A stretch of DNA of 53,099 bases from Candidatus Thorarchaeota archaeon (GTDB taxonomy: Archaea > Asgardarchaeota > Thorarchaeia > Thorarchaeales > Thorarchaeaceae): contig JAGXKG010000008.1 in NCBI GenBank assembly GCA_018335335.1, forward strand, positions 1-53,099. The letters run 5' to 3'. The translations under genes were made by a program, and so were the position numbers. Shown piece by piece: positions 7,613 through 31,126 of the stretch (position 1 is its first letter; each line of letters opens with the position of its first letter). Below the pieces are notes generated by a model, which saw only the letters and a list, made by a program, of their open reading frames with translations, was not told where the DNA came from and ran no database searches.

Positions 7613-8647
7613 ATGCCAATCAACGAACAATCTGCAGAAATGTTGGAACTATTGGGATTCAGCACAGGAATAAATCATGATTCACGCGCCTTGAGTCTTT
7701 TACGAGCCATGCTCAAGAAATGTGATGAAACAGGGAAACCACTATCGTTCACCACTGCTTATGAAGCTCTACTAAGAGAAGAACCAAGCGCAAGCCCCTC
7801 AAAAGCATGGATTCACAAGGTGCTGAAATCGCTTGTTGATGATGGCCTCGTGACTGTGTTTGGCGAGAGAGCACATCGCAAAAGCTATCTTGCAGATGCC
7901 AAATCTGTGATGAATGGGATCGAAATTCTTAGAGAGAAAGCTATTGAAAGGATCTCGGAAACAATAGATACAAAGAAACAAGAGCTAGAAACCATAAGAA
8001 AGCTGGATTCTGCTGCCCTCGCGCAAGAAATCACCGAATGGATAACTGGAAGAAAACAAGCACTAAGAGCGAGATTCATCAAAGGAATCGACGAATTCTA
8101 CAGAGTCATTGACACCACACTATACAAGAGTCTGAAAGCTGGAGACGTTCTAAGAATCTGTATATTGACAATCAACCCATTCATGCATAGATTTGAGAAG
8201 AGAATCGGAAAGATGATTAACATAGCCAAAAAAGGTGTTGAAGTCAAATTCGCAGTTCCAGCATCTTTACTGAAGAAGAATTCCCTGAAGAACGACCTTG
8301 AACTGAGAGAACTCATCAAACGCGGACTAGGTAGTCTGATTACACTACGAGAGCAGGGGCACAAAATAGATGCCCGGTTCTTCAATATCAGCAAAAAGCA
8401 CTATCAATTCGTAGCTGCAAATCAGGATAGCATGGCGCTCATGATAACAGAACAGCCAATTGCAGGAGCGTGGATGAGTCGTCGTTTTAACGCAGATCTT
8501 GTAGACTCAGCTATTGAATCCTTTGATGAGATTTGGAACAAGTCCAAGTCTGTACTTGACATCCGACCCTCAGACATCGAATCTTTTGGAATAGATACAA
8601 ATTCTAAGATCGGGATGGTCTTTCTGAAGGGAGGTAAGGAATCGTGA
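7613..8647 (+). CDS. TrmB-like winged-helix regulator, paralogue 1
   Basis: A 344-residue protein: winged helix-turn-helix at about 20-95 (recognition-helix block SKAWIHKVLKSLVDDGLV), a charged coiled coil at about 100-140, and a C-terminal alpha/beta domain (about 165-315) like the effector domain of TrmB regulators (phospholipase-D-like fold without HKD catalytic motifs). It is homologous to the next two genes in three blocks: the winged helix, the coil, and a C-terminal block with a basic/aromatic strand, a short hydrophobic strand and a final FDEIW helix. First gene of an operon, overlapping the next by four bases (GTGA). The ligand and DNA target are unknown; the promoter palindromes are candidates. 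Confidence 0.8.
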   Translation: MPINEQSAEMLELLGFSTGINHDSRALSLLRAMLKKCDETGKPLSFTTAYEALLREEPSASPSKAWIHKVLKSLVDDGLVTVFGERAHRKSYLADAKSVMNGIEILREKAIERISETIDTKKQELETIRKLDSAALAQEITEWITGRKQALRARFIKGIDEFYRVIDTTLYKSLKAGDVLRICILTINPFMHRFEKRIGKMINIAKKGVEVKFAVPASLLKKNSLKNDLELRELIKRGLGSLITLREQGHKIDARFFNISKKHYQFVAANQDSMALMITEQPIAGAWMSRRFNADLVDSAIESFDEIWNKSKSVLDIRPSDIESFGIDTNSKIGMVFLKGGKES

Positions 8648-9558
8648 CGAGCACAGGTACAAATCACACTTCACTACTTCAGCTTCTTGATGTGAACTCA
8701 CAAGAGAAGAAAATGCAGGTTCTGAGGTCTCTGCTTGAAGCATGTCAGAATGAGGTCAGAGTTGGTTTTTCAGACATTCTGAAACATCTCGGCGGTGATG
8801 ATGCCGGGAAGCCCAACGAATCACTAATCTATCGGTTGCTAAGCTCCTTGGAAGATGAGGGTTTCATTGAGGTGGATAGGAGCGGCTATAGACACAGATA
8901 CTGCTCAGACTTGGATCGGATAGAGAGAGCTTTACAGAGGAAGAAAGAAAGCACTCTGCAAACGCTTTCTGAAGAAAGGGCCAAGCTAAAAAAGAGACTT
9001 GAACGGATCAATAACATCGGAATAGGTCTATTAGTCGACAGAGTCATCAAGGCAATGACTGATTCTAAGTGGGATGGCAAAACTCGTTTTGGCATGGGTC
9101 TCAGGACCATACAGCTCATGGCAGATCGAGAAGTCTACGCCCAAGCAGTCCAAGGGGACATCATACGGATTACAGTTGATGACGTGGATCTTCAAGCTCC
9201 ACAATGGATCAATCGATTCGAAGTCTTTGGAAATTTGGCTTCAAGAGGGGTAGGATTGAGGGTTCTTTTCACTTGGCCATGTAGGCATGTGAAAAAAGCG
9301 TGGAGAGATACGACGGAAGAGTATCTATCTCTCAAAAACAAAGGTCTAGATGTCGATTTTCGTATTAGGACCTCAGACTTGACCTATCAGATGGTAACAA
9401 GGAATGCCGAGGTCCTAGTATTGACAGTAGCGGAAGAACCGTTGGCGTCCATATGTGTACCTAGAAGCGAGAATCCAACACTGCTCGATGATGTTGTAGA
9501 TAGTTTTGATGCAGAATTTTCATCATCTTACAGTTTAGGTGAGAGTGATGTCCGATGA
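8644..9558 (+). CDS. TrmB-like winged-helix regulator, paralogue 2
   Basis: A 304-residue protein starting at GTG 8644 inside the stop of the previous gene, with a strong GGAGG ribosome site upstream. It has the same order of parts as its neighbours: winged helix (ESLIYRLLSSLEDEGFIEVD, about 60-80), coiled coil (about 90-125) and a TrmB-like C-terminal domain (about 150-295) ending in VVDSFDAEF. It is clearly diverged from paralogue 1, so the duplication is old. The 4-base overlap on both sides indicates translational coupling and equal dosage, which fits subunits of one heteromeric regulator. Function beyond DNA binding is inferred. Confidence 0.78.
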   Translation: MTSTGTNHTSLLQLLDVNSQEKKMQVLRSLLEACQNEVRVGFSDILKHLGGDDAGKPNESLIYRLLSSLEDEGFIEVDRSGYRHRYCSDLDRIERALQRKKESTLQTLSEERAKLKKRLERINNIGIGLLVDRVIKAMTDSKWDGKTRFGMGLRTIQLMADREVYAQAVQGDIIRITVDDVDLQAPQWINRFEVFGNLASRGVGLRVLFTWPCRHVKKAWRDTTEEYLSLKNKGLDVDFRIRTSDLTYQMVTRNAEVLVLTVAEEPLASICVPRSENPTLLDDVVDSFDAEFSSSYSLGESDVR

Positions 9559-10526
9559 ACAGTCGAATCCATGTTTCGGAACTTGGACTCTTTGAACTCG
9601 ATGTGGAATCGCGCAAGATGAGCGTTCTCGAAGCTGTTCTAAAGTCAGTAGAGGGAGAATCAGCTACAGCTGGCTTCAAAGAGATATTTGAAATAGTGAA
9701 TGCCAATGAGAAAGACAACCTCTCCAAAAGCTGGATCTACAAGTGTCTCGGAGAGCTAGAACAAGAAAGGTTTGTAGTAGTTGATCGGATAAGTACACCA
9801 AACAAGTACATGGCTACAAAGGAAACCATTGCAAAGGCATTAGAAAGCGCTAAGAAAAAACAAATGGGCAAGCTCCGCAAGAGGATAAACGAGAAAAAGA
9901 AGAATGAAGATATTATTCGTAATGCAAGTATTCATGAACTTGCAAGAGAGCTGGCAGGTAAATACAAGAAAGAATCAAGGGAATACTCCCAGCTAATTGA
10001 GGGCAGTGAAAACGTCAGAAGTTTATTGGTTTCTGAAATACTAGATGCCGCAAATCAAGACAGTGTTATTAGGGTCTCCAACTCTTCGAGCTCTCTAGCG
10101 ACCAATCTTGATGAACGAGGCCCAGTAGAAGTACGAATGCTTGAACGAGCAATAAATGGAGTTGAAATTCGAGTTCTCTTTTCTAGGAGAAACCCAACAA
10201 CAAATGAACCAAAATCGATTTCATCTTTCATGAATGACACACTTCCACTATTGGGCAAGGCGGTATCCTCGGGAAGGTTGAAACTCCGGGTCATAGAGGA
10301 GGATAGGAGTACATATCGTAGTTTAATTAGAAATCAAGAAAAAATGATTCTGTACTTGTCTGATACGTACAAAGCAGATGCCGCCTTCCTCATATCAAAT
10401 CAAGATAATGAAACACTGATTCAGCAAAATATCAAGACATTTGATAAGAGGTGGAAAAAAGCCGCAGATATCACAGATATGATGAAGAGGGTTATTTCAA
10501 GTGCAAGTTCTCAGGCCAACGGTTAG
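9555..10526 (+). CDS. TrmB-like winged-helix regulator, paralogue 3
   Basis: A 323-residue protein beginning at ATG 9555 within an ATGA overlap with paralogue 2. The winged helix (SKSWIYKCLGELEQERFVVVD), a basic coiled coil (about 95-125) and the C-terminal sensor-like domain match the two preceding genes in order, including the closing helix IKTFDKRW. No HKD or other catalytic motif is seen. The stop codon overlaps that of the convergent DHH gene (TTAG at 10523-10526), so there is no room for a terminator between them. Most likely a third subunit or sister regulator in the same complex. Confidence 0.78.
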   Translation: MNSRIHVSELGLFELDVESRKMSVLEAVLKSVEGESATAGFKEIFEIVNANEKDNLSKSWIYKCLGELEQERFVVVDRISTPNKYMATKETIAKALESAKKKQMGKLRKRINEKKKNEDIIRNASIHELARELAGKYKKESREYSQLIEGSENVRSLLVSEILDAANQDSVIRVSNSSSSLATNLDERGPVEVRMLERAINGVEIRVLFSRRNPTTNEPKSISSFMNDTLPLLGKAVSSGRLKLRVIEEDRSTYRSLIRNQEKMILYLSDTYKADAAFLISNQDNETLIQQNIKTFDKRWKKAADITDMMKRVISSASSQANG

Positions 10527-13597: not shown

Positions 13598-14203
13598 ATG
13601 AAACAGCATCAAAACATTCTGATAGCAGGTGTCGGCGGGCAAGGTAATCTTGTATGTGGTAAAACGCTTGCCCAAGCAGCAGTAGAAGAGGGTTACAAAC
13701 CTGTAGTAGGCCAGATATTCGGTGCTTCAAGAAGAGGGGGAACTGTTCAAACCCATGTGCGAATAAGCAATAGCAATTTGGGCCCTCTCATTCCTCGTGG
13801 TGATGTACATATCATACTTGGCCTTGAGCCTATGGAAACCCTCAGAGCAGCAATAGAGTACGCTGGCCCTGAGACTATTGCACTTATGAGTGAAACTCCA
13901 GTGCAAACAGTAGATTCATTGGCAGGAAGAAAGCTATACCCCCGGCTTGACGAACTTCGGGGGTCGCTATCAGCACTCGCAAGAAGAGTCTATTCGGTAG
14001 ATCCCACAGAGACACTTGAGGATCTAGGAACCTACCGAGTGCAGAATTCGTATATGTTAGGAGCACTATGTGGCATTCAGACTGCTAGACTCAGCAAAGA
14101 GAGTATCAAGACAGGGCTCATTGAGATAGTTGGTAGAAGTCAACCCAATACAGAGGCATTCGAAGAGGGGTTGAAAGCTGGGAGATGTGCAGTTAGCGAA
14201 TAG
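13598..14203 (+). CDS. iorB: Indolepyruvate ferredoxin oxidoreductase, beta subunit
   Basis: The 201-residue gamma-type domain subunit of IOR, which pairs with IorA. The N-terminal block ILIAGVGGQGNLVCGKTLAQ is the family signature, followed by GQIFGASRRGGTVQTHVRIS and LGLEPMETLRA. It is transcribed with iorA (six-base gap), and length and order are as in other archaea. No odd features. Confidence 0.95.
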   Translation: MKQHQNILIAGVGGQGNLVCGKTLAQAAVEEGYKPVVGQIFGASRRGGTVQTHVRISNSNLGPLIPRGDVHIILGLEPMETLRAAIEYAGPETIALMSETPVQTVDSLAGRKLYPRLDELRGSLSALARRVYSVDPTETLEDLGTYRVQNSYMLGALCGIQTARLSKESIKTGLIEIVGRSQPNTEAFEEGLKAGRCAVSE

Positions 14204-14643: not shown

Positions 14644-16944
14644 CTAGAACTGATTGTCTTCTTTCTTCTGTTTAGCCATTTCTTGTGCGTCCTCATACAT
14701 GAGATTCGCTAGAATGGTAAACATATCTGCGACTCCTTCTCCAGTCTTAGCGCTGGTTTCCATGTAGAAAAATCCTTGGTCTTCAGCCCATTTTTTCGCT
14801 TCGTATGGATCGACTGCTCTATCAGGAAGATCTATCTTGTTTCCAACAATAAGTGTGGGAACTTTGCGGCCAATGGACTCATATGCTTCTTCAACCCAGT
14901 TTGGAAGCTCCGCGAAAGATCTTCTCCTAGTAACGTCGTAGACCAGAATAACACCAGCCGCTCCGCTGTAGTACATCTTCCGTACAGCTTGGAATCTGGC
15001 CTGACCTGCTACATCCCACACCTGTAATTTGAGCCCAACCGCATGATCTTTCTCTTCTGGATAGATATGAGTTAGCTTGACAGCGAATTGGCTGCCAATC
15101 GTGGTCTTGTAGTCTTTCTCAAAACTACCTGTCGTGTACCGATTAACAAGTGCCGTCTTACCAACAGCACCCGGACCGACAATCATGCTCTTCATGAGAT
15201 ACTCGTAGGCATCTTCGGACTTGCCAGGGGGAAGAGGTTTGGGTTCTCTATTTCGTATCTCAGTTACTAACTCGCTCTCTACTTGCTCAGGTTCCTCAGG
15301 AGCTGGTGGTTCTTCTGGTTCCGTCACTGTTTCTGTCATTGCTTTCAAATCGTCGCCAGTGGGTCCCACAGGTTCAGTCTCACCGAAGATATCATCCAGC
15401 ATTTTGGAAGCTGCTTCAAGCTGTTGTTTTTCGCCTTCAGTATACTCTTGCTCTGTTTCAATTTCTGGCTCCGTTGTCACACTGCCAAAACCTGTACCCT
15501 CAGCACTTACAGAAGATGTTTCTACAGCTTCTTCTTGAGGTTCAGAAGGGGAATCAAGGGTTACTTCAGGAGCGGATGCGAGAGAAGCTTTCGCTTTGCC
15601 TTCTTCTACTGAAATTGCTGTCTCGGGAGTCGTTACCTGCTTGACATTCCCGGAGTCATCCGTCCACATCAACACAATCGGGCGTACAACAACTGTACCT
15701 TCTTCAAGTGGGCTCAAATGAACTCGAATAGATTTGCATTCTTCAGGACCAAGATCAAATGCCAACTCTTTGGGCTCAACTTCCATGTGGTCTTTCGGAA
15801 ACCAGTAGATCTTCCCTTTGATTCCTGAAATTGATTTTTCGGTGGCATTGGTGACTGTAACCTCTCCTTTCAGCTCTTCACCAGCAGCAGCTTCACGACT
15901 AACCTCGAAACGAGGAATTATTTCATAGAGACCTTCGAGCACTTTGAGCGGGCCGTCTGAAACTCCCACTAGAATCTCTTTGCGATCATCTCCGCCTGCA
16001 TCTCCTACGCTTATGGACAGAATTTTTCGTCCCATATCAGTTACGGCTAGTTGCTTTAGCTCAGCCATGTACAGGCTGTAGAAAACAATCTCTTGGTTGG
16101 AGTTGGCTATGATTATTTCAGACATATGATCAGCGTTTATCTCAGCCATCCGAATCGATAATGCGTCGACATCCTCAAGTTTGGAGAATAAATCAAGCTC
16201 ACTCTCTTCGTTACGATATATCCTGATGGAGCCATCGTGAGTCACGACCCCGAGTTCCATCTTTCGGTCTCCAAGAATATCGCCTGCTGCCAATGAGATA
16301 ACAGGACTTGGGAGATCAAGCACTGCAATCTCATCAGCTGAATTTCCTCTAATCTTGAAAACACGCAATGTTTTGTCTCGATTACCAATGACTATCTCGT
16401 CTATCTCATCGCCAATCACATCGCATGTACCGATACAAAGAGGCATGTCTTCGAGTGTGTAGCAAACGAGTTCTTCTAATTGATTATCAGTAGCCATCTT
16501 GAAGACTCTAAGAGTAGAATCACTTCCACCAGCTATGATTTCGTTCTTGCCATCTCCGGTAACATCAGTAACTTCTACGGTAGTTACAAAGCGACCAATA
16601 GAGTATTCTGCAACAAGCTCAATTTGTCCACTGGGAGCGTATCGATAAACTTGAAGGGTTCCCGTTTCACCGGGTAAATCACTTCCGCTCACACTTCGGC
16701 CAACAACAATCTCCATTTGCCCGTCATTATTTGCATCTTCGACACTTATTGAGAGGATGCTCCCTTGAACAGATGTCTGTGCTAGAAAGTCTAGGTGATC
16801 CTCGTTGGCTTTGTATAACCGGAGTATCCCATCCCGTCCACCAGTGCAAATCTCCGGCCTCGTTGAGCCCGTCAAATCACCTGTGGCCGAGGCACTAGTG
16901 CTAGTATCGTCTTCCACTTCAAAGAGTATCTTAGGCGAATCCAA
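14644..16944 (-). CDS. Seven-bladed beta-propeller fused to a Ras/Rab-like small GTPase
   Basis: A 766-residue multidomain protein. Residues 1-340 hold seven repeats of about 47 residues with the pattern D-x-x-G-D-x-x-x-E-I-x-x-G (starting near 23, 70, 127, 175, 222, 268 and 315), an FG-GAP/VCBS-like seven-bladed propeller. Residues 343-445 look like an Ig-like beta domain. Residues 446-580 are an acidic, Pro/Glu-rich linker. Residues 584-752 are a complete small GTPase: GPGAVGKT (590-597), Thr-rich switch I, WDVAGQ (643-648), NKID (702-705) and ETSAK (729-733). No C-terminal prenylation cysteine is present. All nucleotide motifs are intact. The start is TTG 16944 with GAGGATG upstream. A scaffold role in membrane or cytoskeletal traffic is inference. 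Confidence 0.93.
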   Translation of the reverse strand: MDSPKILFEVEDDTSTSASATGDLTGSTRPEICTGGRDGILRLYKANEDHLDFLAQTSVQGSILSISVEDANNDGQMEIVVGRSVSGSDLPGETGTLQVYRYAPSGQIELVAEYSIGRFVTTVEVTDVTGDGKNEIIAGGSDSTLRVFKMATDNQLEELVCYTLEDMPLCIGTCDVIGDEIDEIVIGNRDKTLRVFKIRGNSADEIAVLDLPSPVISLAAGDILGDRKMELGVVTHDGSIRIYRNEESELDLFSKLEDVDALSIRMAEINADHMSEIIIANSNQEIVFYSLYMAELKQLAVTDMGRKILSISVGDAGGDDRKEILVGVSDGPLKVLEGLYEIIPRFEVSREAAAGEELKGEVTVTNATEKSISGIKGKIYWFPKDHMEVEPKELAFDLGPEECKSIRVHLSPLEEGTVVVRPIVLMWTDDSGNVKQVTTPETAISVEEGKAKASLASAPEVTLDSPSEPQEEAVETSSVSAEGTGFGSVTTEPEIETEQEYTEGEKQQLEAASKMLDDIFGETEPVGPTGDDLKAMTETVTEPEEPPAPEEPEQVESELVTEIRNREPKPLPPGKSEDAYEYLMKSMIVGPGAVGKTALVNRYTTGSFEKDYKTTIGSQFAVKLTHIYPEEKDHAVGLKLQVWDVAGQARFQAVRKMYYSGAAGVILVYDVTRRRSFAELPNWVEEAYESIGRKVPTLIVGNKIDLPDRAVDPYEAKKWAEDQGFFYMETSAKTGEGVADMFTILANLMYEDAQEMAKQKKEDNQF

Positions 16945-17100
16945 GCTATGTCATCCTCATGTATTGTAAATATGCAAATGCCCGTAGTGATTCAAATGTT
17001 CGATGCAGGGTGATATTAACCGTGCTGTTCAGGTTTTTGAAGGTGAAGATACCTTTTAGACCTTTTGCGGTAATACTGTTTGAATAGAGCTGAGAAGGTA

Positions 17101-28042: not shown

Positions 28043-29350
28043 CTATAGAGCGAAACCTGTCTTACCAGAACCCCAGGATTCCAAAGCAACCTCTAATTCT
28101 TCATGATCCTTGGCATATTTTCCAACAGGTATTCGCTCCATCTTAGCATTGATAGCTTGTCTGAATGCGGTTGCTCCTGCTCTTGCACCATCGGGGTGTG
28201 CATGGATTGCTCCACCGCTTCCAATGACAATATCGGGGCCAAGATCATCCATGACCTCTTCAACCATTCCTTGGCTGATGCCACCGCTTGGCATAGGAGC
28301 ACTCTGTTCGATATGGTGAAGTGGCATAATCATCTCATGCGCCATTCCAAGAAAACGCTCCTTCAGTATGGGGGCTTTGCCATAAGGCGCGGGGAATACT
28401 GTGATATCTGAACCGCATAAGCGAGGCAGCTTGCCAATAACCAAATTGGATGCAATTCCTGAAATCGGAGATTCATACAATGCTCCAGCGATATCCATGT
28501 GACCAAGGACTGGCACCTTTGTCGATTCATCTTCGCATACGGCTCTGAATGCAGAATATCCAACAGCAAGGAAATTCACCATAAGAGCATTAGCGCCATA
28601 CTCTTGTGCGCGTTCGGCGTTTTCAAGGACTTTCGGAACACGGTCAGTGATGTTTGCTGTATAGAGAGTTTTCTCGCCTTTTTCCTCGTCGGCTCTATCT
28701 GCAGCTTCCATGAAAAGCGTCACCCGTTCCTCCAATGTGTTGAAATGCGGGTCAGCAAGTAGTTCATCATCTTTGATGATGTCAGATCCACCAACAGCAG
28801 CCTCGTAGAACAGCTCCGCACCCATTTTTGCGGATGTGTATACACACGGTTTTATCATGTTATTCAGGAGTGGACGTTCCTTTACGCCAAGCAATTTTCT
28901 TAGACCTTTCATCCCGAATTTCGGGCCTGAGAACTCCTTTAGCCAGCTTTTCGGAAAACGCAAGTCCAAGCATTTGATGCGACCACCCATTGAGATGTTT
29001 CCAATGACAGTGCTTAGCAGCATTGGAATCTGGGGACCGAAATTCTCGTGGGGAAAAGCAACTTGAATGATGTATTCTCTACGTTCCAAATCGCTTGGTT
29101 TGCTATATTCATAGTAGGGAACTTCGTATATTCCAACTACTTTGGCAACATGTCGTTTTCTGACCTCGACTGTTTCACCCGGCACCATCGTCCATGTGCC
29201 AGTCGATTGCTCGATAGCTGCAGCGTGAGCTACATCTCTAGCATCCATAAAGGGTGGCAAACCAACATAATAGGTTCCTATGACATACTTCTCATAATCA
29301 AGCGCATCGGGCATTGCATCGGGCATTGCCTCAAGCGGAATTTCATCCAT
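28043..29350 (-). CDS. RuBisCO-like protein (form IV type)
   Basis: A RuBisCO large-subunit homologue of 435 residues from ATG 29350, with AGGA nine bases upstream (TTG 29359 is also in frame). By alignment to spinach RuBisCO it keeps the metal-site triad K193, D195, E196 (GGSDIIKDDE), K167 (K175 in spinach), K307 (K334), the phosphate loop SGG (355-357) and GSGG. It lacks K177 (Cys169 here), R295 (Met285), H298 (Ala288) and H327 (Ala300), all needed for normal CO2 fixation. It is therefore most likely a RuBisCO-like protein with another enolase-type reaction, for example in sulfur or sugar salvage. Residues 8-17 carry a doubled MPDA repeat. Divergent from fhs. Confidence 0.88.
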   Translation of the reverse strand: MDEIPLEAMPDAMPDALDYEKYVIGTYYVGLPPFMDARDVAHAAAIEQSTGTWTMVPGETVEVRKRHVAKVVGIYEVPYYEYSKPSDLERREYIIQVAFPHENFGPQIPMLLSTVIGNISMGGRIKCLDLRFPKSWLKEFSGPKFGMKGLRKLLGVKERPLLNNMIKPCVYTSAKMGAELFYEAAVGGSDIIKDDELLADPHFNTLEERVTLFMEAADRADEEKGEKTLYTANITDRVPKVLENAERAQEYGANALMVNFLAVGYSAFRAVCEDESTKVPVLGHMDIAGALYESPISGIASNLVIGKLPRLCGSDITVFPAPYGKAPILKERFLGMAHEMIMPLHHIEQSAPMPSGGISQGMVEEVMDDLGPDIVIGSGGAIHAHPDGARAGATAFRQAINAKMERIPVGKYAKDHEELEVALESWGSGKTGFAL

Positions 29351-29530
29351 TGTAATCAATCCTACAACTCTGTATACATGGCGTCTTATGTCCTTTTGGA
29401 GCAGAAGATTCAGAAATCAACAGTAAATTTATTCAGCTGGCTTTATTTGGACAGGCCACATAACCAGAAACAGTATTTCGCTTGTTGTTCTATTATGACA
29501 TGAGAACAAGTCGCTCTGGAGGTTTACAGG

Positions 29531-31126
29531 ATGATTCACATATCAGAGGTAGCGGACAAGGCAGGAACAGATGAGAAATATCTTGAGCCCTATGGAAGGC
29601 ACATGGCTAAGATTGACTTGAAGATTCTGGAAGAACTTGGCGACAGAAAGGGAAAACTAATCCTCGTAACCGCCACTAGCCCTACCAGTGCCGGAGAAGG
29701 AAAGACTACGAACTCAATAGGTCTCTCCATGGCTCTCAATGCGTTAGGTCATAGTGCAGTAGTGACTCTCAGAGAGCCCTCTCTTGGCCCTGTGTTTGGT
29801 ATTAAGGGAGGCGCTACTGGTGGAGGAAAATCAAAGGTTCTTCCATCGGACAAAATCAACCTATCATTCACAGCCGATTTTCCAGCGGTCACATCAGCTC
29901 ATAATCTGCTTTCAGCACTGATTGATAATCACATACACCGAACCACGGACGTTGGCGTCGATGGCAGACGGGTGTATTGGCCCCGAACCCTTGATATGAA
30001 TGACCGAGCTCTCAGAAAAGTTGTTGTTGGGCTTGGCGGTAAATCCGGTGGGTATCCACGAGAGGATACATTCGTCATTACTGCAGCATCCGAAATCATG
30101 GCAATTCTTGCCCTCTCGAAAAATTACAATGATTTGAAGAAACGACTTGGAAACATACTGGTTTCAAGAGACCTCGAGTTGAATGAAATATATGCAAGGG
30201 ATTTGAATGCTGAAGGAGCCATGGCCGTACTGCTGAGCGATGCCCTGAAACCTAACCTTGTACAAACTTCTGAAGGTACACCTGCTATCATTCACGCTGG
30301 GCCTTTTGCCAATATAGCACATGGAACCAATTCGATTGTTGCTATCGACATGGCACTCCGTATGTTCGACTATGTCGTGGTTGAGGCAGGATTTGGTGCT
30401 GATCTGGGAGCAGAGAAATTCTTCAACATCGTTACAAGAGCAGGAGACTTCGGTGTTGATGCCACTGTTCTTCTGACATCGATTCGAGCCCTCAAGAAGC
30501 ATGGTGACGGTGAGCTTAGCAAGGGATTCCCAAATCTCGAAGCACACGCCGAGAACCTTACTGAGTTTGGTGTTCCCTTTGTTGTAACACTGAATCGCTT
30601 TCCAGAGGACACTGATGAGGAAATCGCTGAGCTGCGCAAATTCTGTGAAGGAAAGGGATGGCCCATGGAGGTATCAGAGGTCTTTGCGAAAGGCAGTGAA
30701 GGCGGAAAAGACTTCGCGAAAAGCGTACTGGAAGCCGTCAAGAAGGAAAGCAATCTGAAGTACACATATGACCTTGATGATGATATCAAAACCAAGATTG
30801 AGAAGCTTGCCGAGTCGGTATATGGTGCAGATGGCGTCACATACTCAGGCAATGCGGGAGGAGAAATCTGGTCCCTAGAAAACCGTGGTCATGGTGATTT
30901 GCCTATTTGCGTTGCGAAAACACAGTTCAGTCTTTCAGATGACTCGAAGTTACTTGGAAGACCTGAAGATTTCAGGGTGAATGTACGAGGAGCAGATGTT
31001 AGTGCTGGAGCGGGCTTTGTTATTGTGTACATGGGGGATGTAATGCTCATGCCGGGATTGCCTAAGAAACCAGCCGCTGAAGACATGGATATCGATAGTA
31101 ATGGCAATAGGAAAGGCGTAATGTAG
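29531..31126 (+). CDS. fhs: Formate--tetrahydrofolate ligase
   Basis: A 531-residue 10-formyl-THF synthetase: ATP-driven joining of formate to tetrahydrofolate. The P-loop TATSPTSAGEGKTT near residues 46-60, the block GGATGGGKSKVLPSDKINLSFTAD (seen here at about 98-121; key parts GGATGGGKSK and INLSFT), and NRFPEDTDEE are family hallmarks. GGAGG lies just before the ATG. It is followed by folD and ftcD on the same strand, forming a folate C1 module. It is slightly shorter than typical bacterial forms. Confidence 0.95.
   Translation: MIHISEVADKAGTDEKYLEPYGRHMAKIDLKILEELGDRKGKLILVTATSPTSAGEGKTTNSIGLSMALNALGHSAVVTLREPSLGPVFGIKGGATGGGKSKVLPSDKINLSFTADFPAVTSAHNLLSALIDNHIHRTTDVGVDGRRVYWPRTLDMNDRALRKVVVGLGGKSGGYPREDTFVITAASEIMAILALSKNYNDLKKRLGNILVSRDLELNEIYARDLNAEGAMAVLLSDALKPNLVQTSEGTPAIIHAGPFANIAHGTNSIVAIDMALRMFDYVVVEAGFGADLGAEKFFNIVTRAGDFGVDATVLLTSIRALKKHGDGELSKGFPNLEAHAENLTEFGVPFVVTLNRFPEDTDEEIAELRKFCEGKGWPMEVSEVFAKGSEGGKDFAKSVLEAVKKESNLKYTYDLDDDIKTKIEKLAESVYGADGVTYSGNAGGEIWSLENRGHGDLPICVAKTQFSLSDDSKLLGRPEDFRVNVRGADVSAGAGFVIVYMGDVMLMPGLPKKPAAEDMDIDSNGNRKGVM

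Follow-up and report, generated by a model that had tools for sequence, protein, structure and literature searches.

A Thorarchaeota protein that carries a seven-bladed propeller, an Ig/ASH-like sandwich and a Rab-like GTPase on a single chain

The stretch of DNA that we analyzed (hereafter the window) comprises the 53,099 nucleotides of contig JAGXKG010000008.1, from a Candidatus Thorarchaeota archaeon. In one open frame, the minus strand encodes a protein of 766 residues in which a propeller, a beta-sandwich, an acidic linker and a GTPase follow one another; the features of the gene are collected in Table 1. The initiation codon is TTG. Relatives have TTG, ATG or GTG at the matching position, usually two residues ahead of S/A-P-[RK], and both these start codons and the upstream GAGGATGA make the TTG a credible start of the fusion gene.

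Table 1. Features of the fusion gene and of its product, in window coordinates
Feature	Position	Strand	Basis
Whole gene, 766 aa: propeller, Ig/ASH-like sandwich, acidic linker, Rab-like GTPase	14644..16944	minus	ORF and alignment of 27 full-length relatives end to end
GAGGATGA, probable ribosome-binding site	16951..16958	minus	sequence; TTG start at 16942-16944
Seven-bladed FG-GAP-type beta-propeller, residues 6-336	15937..16929	minus	AlphaFold2, 28 strands, pLDDT about 91; FG-GAP_3 3e-20; strand register and conservation
Blade motif 1, DLTGSTRPEI (degenerate)	16849..16878	minus	motif scan
Blade motif 2, DANNDGQMEI (degenerate)	16708..16737	minus	motif scan
Blade motif 3, DVTGDGKNEI	16537..16566	minus	motif scan
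Blade motif 4, DVIGDEIDEI	16393..16422	minus	motif scan
Blade motif 5, DILGDRKMEL	16252..16281	minus	motif scan; most invariant residues of any blade
Blade motif 6, EINADHMSEI (degenerate)	16114..16143	minus	motif scan
Blade motif 7, DAGGDDRKEI	15973..16002	minus	motif scan
Ig/ASH-like beta-sandwich, residues 342-438	15631..15921	minus	AlphaFold2, eight strands; Pfam ASH
Acidic, mostly unstructured linker, residues 448-577	15214..15603	minus	33 acidic (D/E) vs 9 basic (K/R) residues in 448-576; pLDDT mostly below 50
Conserved linker helix, consensus SLKAAExLLDQLFGE, residues 503-520	15385..15438	minus	alignment; predicted helix
Rab-like GTPase domain, residues 578-750	14695..15213	minus	Pfam Ras 1.2e-46; Thor-Rab 7EZB 4.6e-47; 90/173 positions invariant
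G1 P-loop, GPGAVGKT	15154..15177	minus	motif in alignment
G2 / switch I, FEKDYKTTIGSQFAVKL	15073..15123	minus	96% mean conservation
G3 / switch II, QVWDVAGQARFQAVRKMYYSGAAG, catalytic Gln Q648 invariant	14953..15024	minus	98% mean conservation
G4, VGNKIDL	14827..14847	minus	motif in alignment
G5, METSAKTGE	14737..14763	minus	motif in alignment

A preliminary description of this locus, made by reading the sequence, had reported seven D-x-x-G-D-x-x-x-E-I repeats about 47 residues apart. The seven repeats are real: a looser motif, [DE]xx[GNA][DS]xxxE[IL], has exactly seven copies in the protein (residues 23, 70, 127, 175, 222, 268 and 315), whereas 5000 shuffles average 0.06 copies and none exceeds 2. 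The strict form D-x-x-G-D-x-x-x-E-[IL] is fitted by only four of the seven, the remainder being degenerate, and the spacings are 47, 57, 48, 47, 46 and 47 residues. In blade 2, residues D70, A71, N72, N73, D74, G75 and E78 are invariant in the alignment of 27 relatives.

The closed seven-bladed propeller that had been expected is indeed seen in the AlphaFold2 model of residues 1-440, built with the 27 relatives (pLDDT 91.5, pTM 0.87). In this model, 28 strands form seven sets of four within residues 6-336, followed by an eight-stranded sandwich at residues 342-438; judging from the model strands and the repeat register, the N-terminal strand 6-14 probably serves as the fourth strand of blade 7 and would close the ring. 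The propeller scores above the Pfam threshold for FG-GAP repeats (FG-GAP_3, 73 bits versus a cut-off of 26.9), which are known from integrins too, while membership of the WD40 family was rejected, because the match to PF00400 (16.4 bits) is below the cut-off of 27. The sandwich is the beta domain that had been noted after the propeller, its identity then left open. ASH domains are Ig-like and are found in centrosomal and ciliary proteins; the Pfam ASH profile is matched by the sandwich in 26 of 27 members at E values up to 0.1 (best 3.6e-6), with the window copy at 20.2 bits relative to a curated cut-off of 27, and we found no PDB sequence relative of the sandwich alone. Conservation amounts to 77-88% per blade and 75% in the sandwich, and it is strongest in blade 5 and in the A-B loops, a pattern that fits a binding platform.

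The C-terminal domain is a Rab-like GTPase with all five nucleotide motifs that had been ascribed to it (GPGAVGKT, TTIGSQF, WDVAGQ, NKID and SAK), and G1-G5 are 91-99% conserved among the 27 relatives (Pfam Ras, 158.7 bits). The catalytic Gln Q648, the P-loop residues K596 and T597 and the switch-I residue T615 are invariant in the alignment; these residues fit nucleotide binding and hydrolysis, which is not the same as proof of either. The closest protein in the PDB is Thor-Rab 7EZB (4.6e-47), followed by the eukaryotic Rab14, Rab30 and Rab2. With RabF motifs defined from family knowledge and PMC10933270, and read by eye against Rab alignments, F1 (IGSQF), F2/F3 (KLQVWDVAGQARF), F4 (YYSGA) and F5 (LVYDVT) are all present, with some substitutions in the Rab motifs, for example V for T in WDTAG. 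The Rab prenylation cysteine is missing: 16 residues follow the GTPase domain, and none of the 27 members has a cysteine near its C-terminus, which extends to all of these members the earlier remark that a lipid-anchor cysteine is lacking. The switch-I arginine that precedes TIG in Thor-Rab (PMC10933270) is replaced by threonine in the fused GTPase, suggesting that its intrinsic hydrolysis may be slow and GAP-dependent. The GTPase, and above all its switch surfaces (96-98%), is the least-changed part of the chain; thus, the strongest constraint on the protein is likely to come from something that reads the nucleotide state.

Between the two folded halves lies the long acidic linker, 129 residues in extent, of low complexity and as described at the outset. 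Its sequence and length differ among relatives apart from one helix, and a second conserved stretch, ES..LV.EIR.R.PK in the alignment, stands directly ahead of the GTPase. The full-length AlphaFold2 model (pTM 0.57, with pLDDT mostly 30-70 in the GTPase) gives no confident inter-domain arrangement, and it neither supports nor excludes a docking of the GTPase switch on the propeller.

In the 27 genomes aligned, the chain is 60-94% identical over its whole length. A profile search of 228 Asgard genomes detected the propeller and sandwich, or ear, in 41 of the 47 genomes of Thorarchaeota, the family of the window (a few of the 41 have only a gene fragment, interrupted at a contig end), and the six without it are 52-88% complete; in that search the propeller-ear was confined to this family and the full architecture was absent outside it. 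The genomes carrying the fusion include SMTZ1-45, the source of Thor-Rab. All 36 loci of the named genome collection are Thorarchaeota, including two deposited as Lokiarchaeota and two deposited just as 'archaeon'. The two Lokiarchaeota deposits, JALVPN010000055.1 (L089) and WJMJ01000128.1 (L099), encode the Thor-only fusion, and their labels look wrong. Among the loci fetched from other Asgard families, remote matches to the propeller are accompanied by wHTH/PCI-like parts, longin/roadblock-like parts or none, and by no GTPase. Apparent relatives of the sandwich in families f11 and f8 were discarded as weak matches from unrelated proteins. The Ig-looking stretch behind an f15 propeller (L041) yielded no match to the fusion-protein sandwich.

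The neighbours of the gene are identical in all 18 loci examined, single-contig genomes included. On the 5′ side is a divergent gene for an ABC-transporter ATPase, and on the 3′ side are two convergent 2-oxoacid:ferredoxin oxidoreductase genes (Pfam names a POR domain at window 13598-14203). Since these neighbours are divergent or convergent, the fusion gene has a stable chromosomal position but shares no operon, and its surroundings do not reveal a pathway; we dropped the assignment of function from gene neighbours, as the adjoining genes lie on the opposite strand. The genomes involved are metagenome-assembled, which is the one ground for suspecting that a misassembly or a missed frameshift joined two genes, but with one open frame, 27 aligned full-length relatives and flanking genes constant in 18/18 loci, misassembly is ruled out and an artefact of either kind has next to no probability. 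The fusion protein is a genuine single chain, and the original proposal of an Asgard protein that unites a propeller with a Rab-like GTPase is confirmed.

Maximum-likelihood analysis places the fused GTPases in a single clade (support 100/99), whose sister is a stand-alone, single-domain group of Thor Rab-like proteins (the C21:6011 group; 96/87), within a wider clade that includes Thor-Rab 7EZB (98/96). Rab14 and Rab30 are placed elsewhere, with weak deep support, and the fused clade sits among Thor GTPases. One fused clade with a stand-alone sister shows that the fusion happened once, and the simplest history places this event in the ancestor from which the sampled family descends. A different combination is encoded by a 542-aa ORF of L112 (G122), in which a Rab-like GTPase precedes a long tail, rich in proline and charged residues, and a zinc ribbon at the C-terminus; this GTPase groups with human Rab14 and Rab30, with weak support.

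The likeness to eukaryotic ciliary and coat systems that had been suggested for this protein is evident in structure, but the sequence matches are unspecific. Foldseek finds, as the ten best PDB folds for the N-terminal half, BBS2, BBS9, BBS7 (the top matches) and the KICSTOR subunit ITFG2, with BBS1 bound to ARL6 next (chain names were taken from the chain letters of the PDB entries); the best-scoring folds, 6voa and 6vbu, have E values of about 1e-16. At the level of sequence, the propeller matches the BBS7 profile at 1e-15, and ITFG2 is the best PDB sequence match of the propeller profile (5e-6). However, eight other Asgard FG-GAP proteins of different architectures, used as controls, also match BBS7 (to 5e-22) and BBS2_Mid (to 4e-25), and they include a secreted-looking propeller-glycosyltransferase that scores as strongly or more strongly against the BBS profiles. 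Because unrelated Asgard propellers score as well or better, the names of the BBS profiles are not evidence of BBSome orthology.

In BBS1, BBS2, BBS7 and BBS9, the propeller is followed by a helix and then by an Ig-like GAE sandwich (PMC7018513). The fusion protein likewise has a seven-bladed propeller and then an Ig-like sandwich, for which the best profile is ASH, not BBS GAE. The BBS-type helix between the two is missing from the AlphaFold2 model, in which the last blade strand ends at residue 336 and the first sandwich strand begins at 342, and the platform that follows GAE in BBS2/7/9-type subunits is replaced by the acidic unstructured linker and the GTPase. Lacking a BBS-specific sequence signal, the interdomain helix and the platform, the fusion protein is not a BBSome subunit, and this candidate identity was demoted to a structural likeness; as modelled, the likeness is one of fold and domain order.

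The single chain proposed in the preliminary description thus stands, while the scaffold/switch role proposed with it is the best reading that we can offer. In the form that we favor, and consider somewhat probable, the fusion protein is an adaptor, specific to Thorarchaeota, that works in the cytosol as a single chain and is switched by GTP. This adaptor model builds on the observed domain order, intact nucleotide site, family-wide conservation and single origin, from which we infer nucleotide cycling, partner binding, targeting by the propeller or the linker, and the identity of the regulator. The propeller and the Ig/ASH-like ear would make up a fixed platform for protein binding, by which the chain would be anchored to a partner complex or to a membrane-associated cargo, and the long acidic linker would be a tether letting the C-terminal GTPase reach out. 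The GTP-bound switch I/II surface would recruit a conserved regulator or effector; hydrolysis of GTP, probably GAP-assisted, and nucleotide exchange by a factor acting in trans, for instance an Asgard roadblock/longin/TRAPPC3-type protein, would then toggle the platform between a state that recruits and one that does not. The prenyl anchor that positions a eukaryotic Rab would be replaced here by the tether. A tethered switch on a fixed platform fits the conserved switch, the conserved platform and the variable linker alike, and we also count in its favor the lack of a C-terminal cysteine in any member, the conserved helix in the variable linker, the nucleotide binding and phosphate release of Thor-Rab, the closest solved relative (PMC10933270), the structural match of the propeller-ear half to BBSome subunits and the precedent of ARL6 switching a BBSome propeller subunit (PMC7018513).

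The same linker helix can be read in another way. If the propeller or the linker helix docked on the GTPase of its own chain and controlled its nucleotide state, whether by autoinhibition or as a regulatory domain built into the chain, the protein would be a self-regulated switch with its true output elsewhere. Both the SLKAAExLLDQLFGE helix and the ES..LV.EIR.R.PK stretch, conserved inside a variable linker, are consistent with this, as is the BBS1 propeller, which binds switch II of the small GTPase ARL6, GTP-bound ARL6 contacting blades 1 and 7 (PMC7018513). However, structure prediction gives no confident domain contact, and a long linker of varying length is more in keeping with a tether than with docking in a fixed geometry, so that we regard self-regulation as possible, if rather unlikely. 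We also think it unlikely that the protein, with its propeller-ear module for cargo or scaffolding and its Rab-like switch covalently joined, works at the cell membrane of the archaeon as the equivalent of the coat adaptors that GTPases recruit, parts that eukaryotes use in trans, as in the ARL6-BBSome or Sar/Arf-coat pairs.

Another possibility, decidedly unlikely in our judgment, is a KICSTOR-Rag-like scaffold for nutrient or redox sensing, in which an ITFG2-like propeller would gather a regulator onto a GTPase that reports the metabolic state. Its attraction lies in the sequence match to ITFG2, in the KICSTOR entries that come directly after the BBSome in the fold search and in the constancy of the ABC-transporter and ferredoxin oxidoreductase neighbours, but other Asgard FG-GAP propellers match ITFG2 too, the neighbours are encoded on the opposite strand, and the GTPase lacks a roadblock domain and resembles Rabs, not Rags. 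A cytoskeletal or polarity scaffold, in which the GTPase would act at a pole or protrusion of the cell, like bacterial MglA, while the propeller binds actin-related machinery, is very unlikely: the actin-like gene that invites this reading is in conserved synteny with a related stand-alone Thor propeller, a different gene, and the fused GTPase groups with Thor Rab-like proteins, although ASH domains do occur in centrosomal and ciliary proteins. The reading as an FG-GAP protein that acts outside the cell like an adhesin, its GTPase match being spurious, prompted by the FG-GAP repeats of integrins and of secreted-looking Asgard propellers such as L055, is extremely improbable, given an N-terminus (MDSPKILFEVEDD) that by inspection has neither signal peptide nor membrane span and a GTPase that is complete and highly conserved.

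Asgard archaea are the closest prokaryotic kin of complex cells, and in eukaryotes the propeller/ear parts and the GTPase switch reside on separate proteins. BBS1, BBS2, BBS7 and BBS9 with ARL6 resemble the fusion in having an FG-GAP-like propeller, an Ig-like sandwich and a small GTPase partner, but ARL6 is Arf-like and separate, whereas the GTPase of the fusion is Rab-like and covalently attached. Similarly, ITFG2 has an FG-GAP propeller and is a high structural match, but it carries no fused GTPase and serves the Rag GTPases, another GTPase family. Roco proteins (Roc-COR with WD40, e.g. LRRK2) do have a Ras-like GTPase and a beta-propeller on a single chain; the fusion protein differs in the lack of COR or kinase domains (no COR is among the Pfam matches listed for it, and just the 16 C-terminal residues remain after the GTPase), in a propeller of FG-GAP instead of WD40 type and in the reversed order, with the propeller first.

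The archaeal parallels are likewise partial. Thor-Rab (KXH73347.1; PDB 7EZB/7EZD/7EZE) is the closest solved sequence to the fused GTPase and also lacks a C-terminal cysteine, but it is a free single domain, whereas the fused GTPase is tethered to the rest of its chain, with propeller, ear and acidic linker; both GDP and GTPgammaS are bound by Thor-Rab, with phosphate release at Rab11B-like levels (PMC10933270). The archaeal Halo_adaptin 'adaptin-like' proteins combine propeller and Ig-like domains, but they are located in haloarchaeal ESCRT loci and have no described GTPase (PMC10936438). Small GTPases are also found in multidomain Asgard proteins (PMC10933270), but in the Asgard roadblock/longin GTPase fusions the partner folds are roadblock or longin, not propeller and ear, and a 2018 review describes Asgard beta-propeller and alpha-solenoid proteins that are encoded adjacently, unfused (PMC6141808). 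The components of the fusion are of known kinds, and their union on a single chain appears to be undescribed: we found no description of a propeller-GTPase fusion in Asgard archaea in the literature searched, a search whose scope excluded many journals and all preprints.

The fusion touches a question of eukaryote origins, namely how propeller-based scaffolds came under the control of trafficking GTPases, since here a propeller and a GTPase are united on one Asgard chain and kept together across at least 12 genera, and the Rab-like switch, as read from its sequence, would be positioned by a tether instead of a lipid. The protein also provides a single expressible target for propeller-GTPase communication, with 766 aa, a well-folded N-terminal half and a crystallised relative of its GTPase.

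Several other genes came to light beside the fusion. Thorarchaeota also share a conserved FG-GAP propeller that stands alone, about 340 aa long (L159:7577-8587, in the window's own genome, C14, and L161:7685-8698, in G186), with an actin-like gene nearby (L159:2153-3295 and L161:2445-3581). The 1023-aa product of L041:3353-6421, from an f15 Asgard archaeon, consists of an FG-GAP propeller, the Ig-looking stretch, PCI/UFL1/DDRGK-like winged helices, a longin/roadblock-looking domain and a zinc ribbon, and it looks like another propeller scaffold with trafficking-type parts. Three f19 proteins (L039:3405-5747, L040:2957-5215 and L052:2183-4567) combine an FG-GAP propeller with four repeats at the C-terminus, similar to one another, which resemble winged helices and have no Pfam name, and the 735-aa product of L048:3147-5351 (f11) has an FG-GAP propeller, a zinc-finger-like stretch and a C-terminal longin/roadblock-like signature, VILIHSQSGVPLFSQ. 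Within the window, three tandem related genes (cluster c0, 7613-10526; 344, 304 and 323 aa) are conserved near the fusion; the first, the only one of the three scanned, had no Pfam match. Elsewhere in the window, a homologue of the RuBisCO large chain (28043-29359, minus strand) adjoins a gene for formate--tetrahydrofolate ligase (29531-31126, plus strand).
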